DNA from: Oscillospiraceae bacterium
Lineage (GTDB): Bacteria > Bacillota > Clostridia > Oscillospirales > Acutalibacteraceae
Assembly (NCBI GenBank): GCA_031280825.1
Contig: JAITGE010000040.1
Span: 1 to 64,000, forward strand
DNA: 64,000 nt
Direction of reading: 5' to 3'
Below are positions 3,001 through 15,938 of this stretch, piece by piece. The position numbers and the translations under genes were made by a program. Below the pieces are notes generated by a model. It searched no databases. It was given only the letters and a program-made list of their open reading frames with translations, and was not told the DNA's origin. Numbering within the stretch: the stretch's first letter is position 1; each line of letters begins with the position of its first letter.

Positions 3001-5424
3001 CGTTTCGTTGGTGTTGTTGCCGTTCACAAAGGCGACGTTACGGAATTCGCGGCTATCGATGCCCTGCGGCATCTTTGGCACGCGCGCTTCGAACCAAACG
3101 GAGAAGCTCTCCAGAGGCTCCAGCTTGCTGATCTCCCACTTGAAGTCATATTTCTGAATGCCGTCCTTGGTTGTGCCGCTCGCTGTGCGCGTGCCGGTCA
3201 CGCTGCCGCCCTGCCCCGTCGAGCCGGAGCTGAGCATGTTCACATAAACCAGGTTGTCCGGCAAAGAATCCGTAATGACCACCGTATCGCTGGGTTCAGA
3301 GCCGGTGTTCTTCACATCGATCGTGTAACGGATCACATCGTTTTCATAAACGGTTGTGCCCGTCATGGGGTTCGAACGCTTCACGCCCACGATTTCAGCC
3401 GAACCGACGTAATGAACCGTCGAGTTCGTCGGGCGGTCGTCCACCGTCGCCATGTTTTCAATCGTGCGGAACTTGACGCCGTCAGGCAGCTCATCCACAC
3501 GCACAGTGAAGCTGAACTTCTTTTCTTCACCGCCTTCGAGCACCGGCACCCTCCAAATGAGCTTCTGCTGCCCGGTGGCAAGAGGTTCGGTGCTGTCGGG
3601 TGACGGAGCTGCGGAAATAAACGTCGTCCCGTCCGGCACCTGATCCGTGACGGTGATGTCGTGCATCTTATCCGGTCCGTTGTTATAAATCGCAATGGTG
3701 TAGGTAATGTTGCTGCCAACCTTCACAATACTGCCGCTGGGCGGATTTGCGGTCTTCACCCCGTTCAGCGTGCCGCTGTAAACAAAATGCTCAGTGGGGT
3801 TGCCGGGGACGTCATTCAAAAACGCCTGGTTCAGCAGCGAACGCGCCATCATGCCCTTGGGCAGCGGGTTCACCGTTACCTTGAATTCCAGCACAATCCT
3901 GCCGCCCGCCGGGATGGTGACGTTAGTGAACACAACCTCCAGGGGCGGATTTTCCTGCGCGACCGCCGTTCCGCCGCTCACAACCCTTGCCGAACCCGGA
4001 ACCAGCGTTGTTCCATCGGGAATATTATCCCGCACGGTGTTGCCCGAGGTATCCTGCGGACCACTGTTGAGCACGGTTAGCTTATACGTAATCGTATCGC
4101 CCTGCTTCATCACCGTGCCGTGCGGGGGGTCAGATTCCTTGACCAAGGTGAGGTGCGAAGCGCACTGCTCGTGCGTGACCTCATTGGAGGAAGCCCCGTC
4201 GTCGCCATAAGCAATGTTCACAATAAATCGGGCGCACTCATCCAGCCCCATCTCCTTCACCCGAACGGTGACGGTTAGGCTGATTGTCTGCTTCGATTGT
4301 ATATCACCCAATTCCCACCGCACGGTATGCGTACCGGAATTGTAATTGCGACTGTTGCCGCCGGTGGATCTGACATATTCCACATATTCGGGCAGCGGGT
4401 CTTCCACACCGTAATTCGGCATCACACCCGTGCCGATATTCGTCACATCAATGGTATATGTAATCTCGTCGCCCGCCTTCATGACCTTGCCGGGCGGCAC
4501 ATCCGCGCGCTTGCTGATAACGACCTCCGCCGGGTCGACATGGAAAAAGATCGTGACGCGCTTCTTCAGTTCCTGACCGGGGATAATGCAGATCTGATCC
4601 GCCTGTGTGCCCCAATAATAAATCAAATCAGGACCTCTTGAGAAATAGACCTCCAGCGTGACGGAAAAATCCTGGATGGTCGGGTTTGCGTAATCAAACT
4701 TAAACTGATTGCCCGTGTGTGTAAATGTCACGCCCGCCGGCGCATCAATCATTTGCCAATCCAGCCCTGCCGTAGCAGGGTTGTTGTCCACAATCGTGCG
4801 CGTGGCGACGCTCGGCTCGCCGCTGTAGGCCGACTTGGTGTAAAGCATCTGATATTTGCCATAATAACGGTTCAAAAGGGTATTTTGCGGCACAAAGTCC
4901 AGCGAATAATCCGGCGGCGGAAACTCAGGCCACTGGAAAAAGGCATGACTTCCCACACCGTAATTATATTTGCCGCCACGCAAAAATTCCCAGCAATAAT
5001 GCTTCATTTGCTCACGGTTCAGCATCAGATTCGCCACGGCAATCAGCGCGCGGTCCTCCTCGCTGAACGGTCCCCATGCCGGACCCATTGCCGTCTTGGT
5101 TTGCTTAACAGGGTTCGCGTTGATTTCCGCAACTGTTTCGCCTGCGGCCAAACGATCCCCAACATTCGGTTCGGTGGAACTGAAATGCTTGTCAAACTCA
5201 ATGCAATAGATATAGTTCCCCAGCGCATCATACTTGTTGTATTCGCCGTCTTCATAAAGGGTAACGTTCTGCCCGGGCGACGGATACGCTGCCAAGGATG
5301 TTGTTGCCATAAGCGACATTTGCCCCGCAATCATGGCAAGGATCAGCAACAGCCCGACAATGGCGCTTTTGATCTTAATCCTGCCCGCGAAGCCACCGGA
5401 TAAGATCCGTTTTTTTCGATCCAT
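1..5424 (-). CDS. Giant secreted DUF11-repeat surface protein (C-terminus beyond window)
   Basis: The frame is open from the ATG at 5424 to the left edge (1808 codons, no stop), so the C-terminus is missing. An AGGAGG site precedes the ATG. Residues 1-45 look like a signal peptide: a basic start, then a hydrophobic stretch around 20-43. Residues about 50-290 form a unique head. From about residue 298 at least twelve DUF11-type modules follow, each with a start like K-x-x-D-P-x-x-G-x-V and a core like ITYTIxVxNxG. From about residue 813 they alternate in two types (GADTLYNIP and NTGNDP), giving a two-module repeat of about 273 residues (816-819 bp). Such proteins are cell-wall or surface stalks and adhesins. 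The sortase just upstream suggests wall anchoring, but the sorting signal would lie outside the window. The head has YIYCIEFD and a later SHAFFQW, faintly like a thioester domain, but the expected TQxA glutamine is not there. Confidence 0.9.
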   Translation of the reverse strand, partial: MDRKKRILSGGFAGRIKIKSAIVGLLLILAMIAGQMSLMATTSLAAYPSPGQNVTLYEDGEYNKYDALGNYIYCIEFDKHFSSTEPNVGDRLAAGETVAEINANPVKQTKTAMGPAWGPFSEEDRALIAVANLMLNREQMKHYCWEFLRGGKYNYGVGSHAFFQWPEFPPPDYSLDFVPQNTLLNRYYGKYQMLYTKSAYSGEPSVATRTIVDNNPATAGLDWQMIDAPAGVTFTHTGNQFKFDYANPTIQDFSVTLEVYFSRGPDLIYYWGTQADQICIIPGQELKKRVTIFFHVDPAEVVISKRADVPPGKVMKAGDEITYTIDVTNIGTGVMPNYGVEDPLPEYVEYVRSTGGNSRNYNSGTHTVRWELGDIQSKQTISLTVTVRVKEMGLDECARFIVNIAYGDDGASSNEVTHEQCASHLTLVKESDPPHGTVMKQGDTITYKLTVLNSGPQDTSGNTVRDNIPDGTTLVPGSARVVSGGTAVAQENPPLEVVFTNVTIPAGGRIVLEFKVTVNPLPKGMMARSLLNQAFLNDVPGNPTEHFVYSGTLNGVKTANPPSGSIVKVGSNITYTIAIYNNGPDKMHDITVTDQVPDGTTFISAAPSPDSTEPLATGQQKLIWRVPVLEGGEEKKFSFTVRVDELPDGVKFRTIENMATVDDRPTNSTVHYVGSAEIVGVKRSNPMTGTTVYENDVIRYTIDVKNTGSEPSDTVVITDSLPDNLVYVNMLSSGSTGQGGSVTGTRTASGTTKDGIQKYDFKWEISKLEPLESFSVWFEARVPKMPQGIDSREFRNVAFVNGNNTNETEHYQYAGSLRAVKSADPPDGSLVYEGTEITYTIKVYNDGADTLYNIPVTDQAPTGTTIIGTPTLSGTGAAGSGTAAGNVASWTITSLASGACATLQFRVRVGTMPENESSRTLRNTAQVGDFETNEVVHEQKNATLEISKTSSPTTGSIVYENDVITYSITVKNTGNDPSYNIKIKDKLPDNLNFVAGSMTNGSSPEGVSVTGAATNIGTTKDGVARYEFNWTVPKLEKGASVTVQFQGTVMKMPFGISERTFRNVGYVNNVPTNETEHSQYAGHLVAAKYSDPVAGTLVHEYDIITYTIEVINNGADTLYNIPAFDEIPAGTEYVPGSARLAVGTGPAGTAGTSFNSGLNRVEWVIPALESHQKAYLTFRVEVQRMPATETDRVIRNLATVDDFETNEVVHPQKNYTLAFSKTSDPITGTTVYEHDVITYSITVKNTGNDPVYDTVIKDKLPDNLQFVAGSVTTGTSPEGVALTGTATANGTTKDGIAKYDFQWTVPVLQRGQTVTVKFQGTVTKMPFGVSSREFRNVAYVNDIATNETEHYQYAGNLTAAKYADPVPGTLVHEYDIITYTIEVINNGADTLYNIPAFDDIPAGTAYVNGSVRMKIGTGSFVTTGCIYNSAEDRVEWVIPALQSAQKAVLEFKVEVQRMPETEADRTIYNIATVDDFETNEVVHPQKNYTLAFSKDSDPETGTIVYEHDIITYSVTVKNTGNDPAYNIVIKDKLPDNLAYIAGSITTGTSPEGIALTGTATANGATKDGITKYNFQWSIPKLEKGATVTVEFQAEVTKMPYGIDSREFRNVAYVNDRETNETEHYQHAGNLVAAKYADPIPGTLVHEHDIITYTVEVINNGADTLYDIPVFDEIPDNTVYQTGSVNMKIGTGAVVTAGCVYNSGLNRVEWVIPALKSHEKAVLTFQVEVGRLDKNEGTREIINVATVDDFQTNTVVHYQSNYDLQISKVSDPASGSTVYEKKPDGSGDTITYTVTVINTGNDPAYDVEI

Positions 5425-14353: not shown

Positions 14354-14533
14354 CTATAAATCATCCGCATCCTGCTCGGGAATACCGTCGTCGCTATCAC
14401 TGCGCCCTGTATAACTGCCCAAAGGATCAAAGCCATCCTCTGCCGGGAATTCGCTTGCTGTTTCCCACCAAAGCTGGCGGCGATTGCGCAGACTGCGCAG
14501 CGGGTGCTTCCAGTTAAACATCTGTTCGCCCAT
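14354..14533 (-). CDS. Small acidic-tailed protein, 59 residues
   Basis: ATG at 14533 with a strong GAGGAGGAG site upstream, stop TAG at 14356-14354. The N-terminal half is basic and aromatic (FNWKHPLRSLRNRR, then QLWWETASEF), the middle has DPLGSYTGR, and the tail is acidic (DSDDGIPEQDADDL). There is no signal peptide or membrane segment. Proteins with a GSYTG motif and a DADDL-like end occur, as I recall, as uncharacterised small proteins in Clostridia. The function is unknown. The clean ribosome site and ordered composition argue that it is expressed. Confidence 0.7.
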   Translation of the reverse strand: MGEQMFNWKHPLRSLRNRRQLWWETASEFPAEDGFDPLGSYTGRSDSDDGIPEQDADDL

Positions 14534-14716: not shown

Positions 14717-14746
14717 TTGACTTTCACGGCGATTATCCTTTATGAT
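14717..14746 (+). promoter_or_regulatory. Promoter of candidate small RNA
   Basis: TTGACT (14717-14722), 18 nt, TATGAT (14741-14746) on the plus strand. The only thing it could transcribe before the terminator at 14825 is the non-coding stretch described next. Confidence 0.55.
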
Positions 14747-14752
14747 GTAGAG

Positions 14753-14871
14753 GCGTTCCACCGGATATTCCGACGTGCAACGCACAGGACGTGAAAAACA
14801 CAGGATGTGGAACGGCAAGGACGTAAAAAAAAGCAAAAGCCCCCGGAAGATCCGGGGGCTTTTGCTTTTTT
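14753..14871 (+). ncRNA. Candidate structured small RNA with AGGA hairpin loops
   Basis: This non-coding stretch of about 119 nt has a promoter on one side and a strong terminator on the other, and no ORF with a ribosome site. CGTTCCAC (14754-14761) pairs exactly with GTGGAACG (14807-14814). Inside are possible hairpins CGGA-TAT-TCCG (14762-14772) and GTGC-AAC-GCAC (14775-14785). Alternatively CAC-AGGAC-GTG and CAC-AGGAT-GTG place a GGA triplet in each loop, and ACG-GCAAGGA-CGT could form a third. GGA-loop hairpins are the known binding form for CsrA/RsmA, so a CsrA-sequestering RNA is one reading. The transcript and the function are inferred. Confidence 0.45.
14825..14871. terminator. Strong bidirectional terminator
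   Basis: Perfect 17-bp arms (14831-14847 and 14851-14867) around an AGA loop, with an A tract on one side and a T tract on the other. It can end both the secreted-protein gene (minus) and the candidate small RNA (plus). Confidence 0.9.
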
Positions 14872-14918: not shown

Positions 14919-15800
14919 TTAAACAGCCAGCTTAAACAACGCAACAAACGCGTTGAACAAACCTCCAAAAATCTGCGTGATATCCATCTTGCTTGTGATG
15001 TTCTTGTAAATCCAAGAATCCTCGCCGAACCATTCGTTATAGAAGCCCAGCGCCTTGTTCACGGTGTCAACGGTATCCCAAATGATCTTCAGCAAGGGCT
15101 GCGGGAAGATCTGGTCAACAACATCCCAACCCGTGAGCTGATAAACAGGCGTCAGATCCAGCGCAGCCTGCAAAATCGTTTCAGCCTGGTTGTAGCGCTC
15201 AATGGTCGGGTCGCCCACATCTACCAAGAGCTTTGCGTTGGTCACAGCAGCCTGCACCTCATCCAGATAATCGCCGGTATAGCGGTTATCCGGGTTCGCA
15301 AGGATCGCGTTGCACTTCGCAAGCTTGTCCTTGTAATCCGCGTCGTCCACCAGCCAAACCTTTTTCACTTCGCTGGTGCGGGTTTCGGTGCCCTTCGTAA
15401 GCGCAAGGGTGACTTCGTATTTGCCGTATTTCGCCGGATTGCCGGGGGTGATGATGGCGGTGAGCTTATTGGCGGATTCCTCCGCAATTTTGCTGACGCC
15501 CGAGCTGCCCATCATGTTCGCCGTGCCGCCCTCATAAAGAACGACCCATTCGTAGGAAATGCCCTGCGCGGCAAGGATGCTCCAGAAATCGGTGTTGTTT
15601 GCGCCGGCGGCGTCCTTTTTGAAAGCCGTCCAGTAGACTTCTTTGCCGTTGGTGCGAGCCGTGGTATCGAGCGCAAACCCGTCAACCACACTTACCCACC
15701 CGTCAACTGCCGATGCCGCCGCAGACGCCGAAACAACGCCGAACACGGACAGCGTCATCAGCACGGCAAGCAGAACGCTGACAATTCTCTTTGTCCTCAT
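14919..15800 (-). CDS. Secreted protein of unknown function with FIVAR-like helical segment
   Basis: 293 residues from the ATG at 15800, which has GGAGGAGG upstream; longer in-frame starts lack a site. A clear signal peptide covers about residues 1-30 (basic MRTKR, hydrophobic core, ASA cleavage region). Residues about 30-165 look beta-rich. Residues about 170-225 (YKDKLAKCNAILAN, then helical up to AALDLTP) resemble FIVAR-type three-helix modules of Gram-positive surface proteins. The C-terminal 45 residues form an amphipathic to hydrophobic helix (IFGGLFNAFVALFKLAV). No wall-sorting motif is present. Likely exported or membrane-associated. Confidence 0.75.
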   Translation of the reverse strand: MRTKRIVSVLLAVLMTLSVFGVVSASAAASAVDGWVSVVDGFALDTTARTNGKEVYWTAFKKDAAGANNTDFWSILAAQGISYEWVVLYEGGTANMMGSSGVSKIAEESANKLTAIITPGNPAKYGKYEVTLALTKGTETRTSEVKKVWLVDDADYKDKLAKCNAILANPDNRYTGDYLDEVQAAVTNAKLLVDVGDPTIERYNQAETILQAALDLTPVYQLTGWDVVDQIFPQPLLKIIWDTVDTVNKALGFYNEWFGEDSWIYKNITSKMDITQIFGGLFNAFVALFKLAV

Positions 15801-15848
15801 TGCAAATACCTCCTCCAAGTAATTTTTTTGCGCAGTTTGGACAAGATG

Positions 15849-15877
15849 ATTGTAGCATATCCATATTAAAAAAGCAA
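15849..15877 (-). promoter_or_regulatory. Promoter of the secreted FIVAR-like protein
   Basis: TTGCTT (15877-15872), 17 nt, TACAAT (15854-15849) on the minus strand, about 50 bp before the ATG. Confidence 0.65.
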
Positions 15878-15938
15878 TAGCTTTTTCATATTTTCGCATT
15901 TTTTATTGTTTTAGAGCCGGTTGCTTTCATATTTCAGC

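Follow-up and report, generated by a model that had tools for sequence, protein, structure and literature searches.

The question raised by positions 14717 to 14871 of the window (the whole 64,000-nt stretch of Oscillospiraceae DNA that was analyzed) is whether this intergenic segment encodes a small RNA (sRNA) and, if so, what might bind it. In a preliminary description it was read as a complete RNA gene whose product is CsrA-binding or otherwise structured. The features of the locus are listed in Table 1. The promoter TTGACT-18-TATGAT is present exactly as claimed (TTGACT at 14717-14722, TATGAT at 14741-14746, spacer of 18 nt) and is the sole promoter-like site of the region (10/12; 0.4 in shuffles). 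From the positions of promoter and terminator, the predicted RNA begins with GCGUUCC about 7 nt past the -10 element. The terminator, described earlier as 17 bp, was found in its place with a longer stem, a perfect inverted repeat of 21 bp (arms 14827-14847 and 14851-14871), and A and T runs flank it on either side. Being bidirectional, it could also end the convergent gene at 14919-15899. A coding reading of the 119-nt body was ruled out by its 16-nt phase, which is not divisible by 3, and by indels in the orthologues; the body is thus non-coding, as had been stated.

Table 1. Features in and around the predicted sRNA gene (positions in the window).
Feature	Position	Strand	Conservation or basis
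Divergent 59-aa gene (...DPLGSYTG...PEQDADDL), syntenic anchor of the RNA in the genus	14354..14533	-	
Sigma-70-type promoter TTGACT-18-TATGAT	14717..14746	+	Almost identical and in the same position in 10 orthologues
Predicted small RNA gene, ~119 nt	14753..14871	+	Promoter and terminator positions, orthologues
8-bp closing helix, CGTTCCAC / GTGGAACG	14754-14761 / 14807-14814	+	Conservation limited to the closest relatives
Repeat unit 1, CGACGTGCAA, degenerate	14771..14780	+	
Repeat unit 2, GGACGTGAAA	14787..14796	+	
Repeat unit 3, GGATGTGGAA	14803..14812	+	
Repeat unit 4, GGACGTAAAA, abuts the terminator	14819..14828	+	
Bidirectional intrinsic terminator, perfect 21-bp stem, 3-nt loop	14827..14871	.	
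Convergent 326-aa secreted-protein gene	14919..15899	-	Not kept at this place in relatives

The evidence is comparative throughout and comes from a genus set of 14 genomes, which are draft MAGs (nine at least 90% complete). The isolate codes of the named Oscillospiraceae MAGs suggest termite guts, which we presume to be their source. The RNA gene was found in 10 of the 13 other genomes of the genus (11 of 14 with the window's own), and most orthologues are divergent from the same small-protein gene as in the window. An RNA of the same kind lies upstream of this anchor gene in G001, G003, G004, G006, G007, G008 and G009. Further orthologues are present in G002 (found via loci L079 and L145) and G012, and the one in G011 was recognized by its promoter, array and terminator together with a downstream gene resembling that of G001 and G003. 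In G013 an array near the anchor gene was rejected as an orthologue and left out of the count because it forms part of the 3' end of a PII-like gene. When the relatives were searched at the DNA level, the G007 copy proved to be 82% identical, with the same promoter and the same body; its terminator differs from that of the window in stem and loop, and terminators at the orthologues in general occupy the same place with a different sequence. The genes downstream of the RNA vary among the relatives and the codirectional ones (G006, G007 and G009) begin past the terminator, which rules out a leader of the downstream gene. The locus has its own promoter and its own terminator, is free of ORFs and is kept as a unit in 11 genomes, nearly all at one syntenic position, so that the description as a complete RNA gene is borne out. 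It was concluded from these comparisons that 14717-14871 is a genuine, conserved sRNA gene. The 59-aa anchor gene itself has no Pfam or NCBIfam match. It represents a small-protein family of the form ...GSYTG...P.QDADDL (59 to 72 aa), likewise unmatched, which is widespread in Clostridia, with at least 55 loci confirmed.

The predicted structure of the RNA fared less well. The whole 155-nt stretch is more stable than its shuffles (z = -5.8), and this stability comes from the terminator, since the body without it reaches a z of only -1.4 (-2.9 to +0.6 for the orthologue bodies). The closing helix is indeed an exact 8-bp inverted repeat, but it is complete in the closest relative only, and its pairing over the 11 orthologues (48.8%) is no better than in shuffled sequences (52.9%). 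The three hairpins proposed to present GGA triplets in their loops consist of 3-bp helices whose retention does not exceed chance: helices of this size were found around GGA in 8 of 28 units against 5.5 expected (P = 0.06). Covariation had been suggested as a check, and RNAalifold returned no consensus pair. The structured-RNA reading was ruled out by the shuffles, RNAalifold and the pair counts.

The conserved feature of the predicted RNA is an array of phased GGA-type units, a motif half seen in the preliminary description, where the exact 16-nt spacing went unnoticed. In the window the body carries the unit GGAYGURAAA in exact 16-nt phase, three copies being strong and one degenerate. Units were scored as GGAYGTRAAA with up to two mismatches and compared with dinucleotide shuffles: the 11 sRNA bodies contain 29 units as against 4.2 in the shuffles (maximum 12), and unit pairs 15 to 17 nt apart were observed 14 times against 0.04 expected (maximum 2). 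The successive spacings in the 11 bodies are 16, 16, 16, 16, 16, 32, 15, 32, 16, 16, 16, 16, 16, 16, 47, 16, 48 and 16 nt. Counted by position over the 29 units, the first six bases are G (28), G (27), A (27), C/T (27), G (29) and T (24), followed by an A-rich tail. The A at position 3 never changes to G. Position 4, which is nearly always a pyrimidine, is never G either, which indicates that the unit is not simply a Shine-Dalgarno mimic.

The array was then sought more widely as a two-unit pattern with 16-nt spacing. With up to three mismatches it gave 22 matches in the 14 genus genomes against 3 for the backward control; with up to two mismatches, 393 other genomes of the order yielded 2 matches against 7 in the control. 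A three-unit pattern searched in 398 family genomes gave, outside the genus, about the control number of matches, which by their look are internal repeats or chance. Two isolated matches were found in viral contigs. Because neither pattern rises above control in the order or family, the phased array is taken to be restricted to the genus within the genomes searched. Such a narrow distribution would suit a lineage-specific repeat that regulates nothing, or a conserved sRNA in which the array has a part only in RNA processing or stability, and the same can be said of arrays that stand in 3' UTRs directly before terminators. We consider this unlikely, since the phase and the GGA are retained while the remaining RNA diverges beyond alignment (the bodies can be aligned in the repeat region only) and the units are concentrated at the start sites of SipW operons, as described below.

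The array unit CARGGAYGU is similar both to the SELEX consensus of CsrA, RUACARGGAUGU, and to the repeat of CsrB, CAGGA(U/A/C)G (PMC7652899), which speaks for the earlier proposal of a classical CsrA-sequestering RNA. A weak Rfam match to RsmY (23 bits, E = 0.0011) points the same way, although it is far under the gathering score of 57. No Rfam family was found at its gathering score, the other low-threshold matches being mostly weak and terminator-driven, and the TwoAYGGAY RNA motif (two hairpins with AYGGAY loops) was not among the matches at E up to 5. The gene csrA (PF02599) is absent from the window's genome and from all 14 genus genomes, the search being positive in the E. coli and B. 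subtilis controls; at E up to 10 it gave chance-level partial matches only, several of them in open frames of about 700 to 740 codons. Outside the genus, csrA is present in 18 of 200 sampled family genomes. The preliminary description had itself named a missing csrA as grounds for giving up the CsrA reading, and its absence from 14 of 14 genomes rules that reading out. In addition, the GGA lies outside conserved hairpin loops and the unit has an additional conserved 3' AAAA. A CsrA-sequestering RNA is very improbable, and short of a strongly diverged CsrA the idea stands refuted. With csrA missing from the genus, a binder of the array would be something other than CsrA.

The same units are present at a second class of sites. 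SipW-type signal peptidase genes were identified by TIGR02228, and six of the ten two-unit matches outside the sRNA lie within 1 kb of such a gene, as does 0.8% of the genome (P about 6e-11, or 3e-7 with orthologues collapsed). Units near SipW operons are often located 22 to 43 nt upstream of start codons and sometimes serve as the Shine-Dalgarno sequence. The genome of the window has one array, at C24:41887, that separates a SipW gene from a large DUF11/isopeptide-type surface protein gene, and an additional unit precedes the SipW start by 29 nt; another array (C3:15982) covers the ribosome-binding site of a different SipW gene, its last unit supplying the Shine-Dalgarno sequence (AGAGGACGTTAAAGCATG). 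In G008 a unit abuts or forms the Shine-Dalgarno sequence (AAGGATGTCAAAATG), and comparable placements were seen in G005, G007, G008, G009 and G010. The array is found between the SipW operon and its terminator in G001, G003 and G011, and in G002 it precedes a class B sortase gene. SipW loci that had not been selected for an array were scanned with a unit matrix trained on the sRNA at a chosen threshold: 13 units above 15 bits were found against a mean of 4.2 for permuted matrices (maximum 11), and four units lie 15 to 50 nt before a start codon against a mean of 0.5 (maximum 3). Purine-rich leaders score slightly with any such matrix, and the permuted-matrix control allows for this. At the same cut-off, no array of two units was found in a similar amount of random genus DNA. 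Strong units are present at 14 SipW loci, and in every case they lie on the sense strand of the SipW gene. The earlier idea of an RNA with many GGA decoy sites therefore loses its CsrA part and keeps its many-site part, as the units recur on the ribosome-binding regions of surface genes. SipW-type peptidases are expanded in the genus, and in some of them the N terminus is extended by several hundred residues.

Direct repeats in exact phase are a typical feature of DNA operators, and the sites have an apparent regulon in common. The repeats, 16 bp or about 1.5 helical turns apart, could accordingly be transcription-factor operators for the RNA gene and the SipW operons. This is quite unlikely in view of where they stand: past the promoter, either in the interval from stop codon to terminator (G001, G003, G011 and G013) or on ribosome-binding sites within operons, and always on the sense strand.

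Other arrays in the genus were noted in passing. The longest one seen is in G010 (contig C451, locus L132, about 690-815), where roughly eight consecutive units at 14- to 16-nt spacing are followed by a terminator. L161 (G007:C167) possibly encodes a second RNA of the array kind at 4440-4620, where two phased units are accompanied by a promoter-like sequence and by a long hairpin with the complement GCGTCC. On the reverse strand of L165 (G013:C28), at about 6047, two units stand directly before the terminator of the PII-like (nitrogen regulator) gene. On the reverse strand of L166 (G009:C8), at about 4391, AGGACGTGAAAA occurs in the leader of an apparent tRNA-Leu gene, between the promoter and the mature tRNA.

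The motif has the same orientation in the sRNA and in the mRNAs, which makes competition for one binder more likely than pairing between the two. That binder might itself be an RNA. Sponge RNAs commonly contain several copies of a seed, and the array is made of several copies of one short motif; the units could be sites for a trans-acting base-pairing sRNA with the seed UUUUACGUCC, which the RNA would soak up, relieving the SipW mRNAs. The variation tolerated in the unit, Y (C/U) and R (A/G), is what G-U pairing permits. However, base pairing does not require an exact 16-nt phase, and the A at position 3 is never G although pairing with U would permit it. Among 15 exact matches in the 14 genomes, none was a conserved non-coding locus carrying the exact complement of AGGACGTGAAAA. 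Sponging of a seed sRNA is thus an unlikely explanation.

The strict GGA, the strict phase and the lack of structure favor instead a multimeric protein that would read single-stranded RNA in register, and the recurrence of the motif beside SipW gene start sites suggests a CsrB-like decoy. We infer, with a probability of about one half, that the sRNA is such a decoy and titrates a putative multimeric, non-CsrA RNA-binding regulator of surface-matrix genes. Its largely single-stranded body would offer the putative, probably multimeric protein a series of GGAYGURAAA sites, two to four or more in number, at an exact 16-nt phase. On SipW and surface-matrix or adhesin mRNAs, this protein would recognize one to three motif copies beside or within the ribosome-binding sites, as well as copies in some 3' UTRs, and once bound may control the translation or stability of these mRNAs. 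Expression of the RNA would titrate the protein away and release the surface genes, which is the presumed sign of the regulation. Some observations count against the decoy model. The sRNAs of G001, G003, G008 and G011 retain two units only, which is few for a strong sponge. SipW-type genes number 3 to 12 per genome in the 14 genomes and many have no strong unit; conversely, several arrays have no SipW gene nearby (G010 C451, the sortase B gene of G002, G007 C167 and the PII 3' UTR of G013).

That these parts form a new post-transcriptional system, in which a non-CsrA multimer reads GGAYGURAAA in a 16-nt register and controls SipW and surface-matrix mRNAs under the control of a decoy, is proposed tentatively. 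If true, the genus would have a system convergent with CsrA-CsrB, and Csr-type titration logic, in which a many-site decoy RNA is combined with sites on the ribosome-binding regions of biofilm genes, would have arisen around another protein in bacteria devoid of CsrA. The motif and its 16-nt register provide an exact handle for finding the binder by RNA pull-down. A lineage-restricted sRNA that is missed by structure-based searches may be recognizable by phase, not by folding.

The closest known counterparts are CsrB/CsrC and RsmX/Y/Z of Gammaproteobacteria, which are likewise stand-alone sRNAs with several GGA-type CARGGAYGU sites and an intrinsic terminator, the same sites being found at mRNA ribosome-binding sites, including those of surface and biofilm genes. 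The RNA described here differs from them in that its genus has no csrA and it matches no Rfam family at gathering score; its body is unstructured with a 16-nt phase and a conserved 3' AAAA, whereas theirs present the sites in hairpin loops. The CsrA/FliW system of Firmicutes also exerts translational control at GGA sites overlapping the Shine-Dalgarno sequence, as is proposed here. Its antagonist is the protein FliW and its target the flagellin mRNA, whereas in this genus csrA is absent and the apparent targets are SipW and surface-protein genes. Gram-positive bacteria have multi-copy-seed sRNAs, such as the C-rich-motif sRNAs exemplified by RsaE. Like them, the present RNA is fast-evolving and has several copies of one short conserved motif. 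The RsaE-type motifs are complementary to the Shine-Dalgarno sequence of the target, whereas here sRNA and mRNAs carry the same sense motif; judged as an Hfq-type pairing RNA, it is thus same-sense with its putative targets and not complementary. SipW-dependent matrix operons are known for TasA of Bacillus and BsaA of Clostridium perfringens (PMC7395162). In the literature searched, no such array was found described for the mRNAs of these operons (TasA, BsaA). The apparent target genes in this genus are of the same SipW-dependent matrix class (TIGR02228, TIGR04090-like and DUF11/isopeptide surface proteins).
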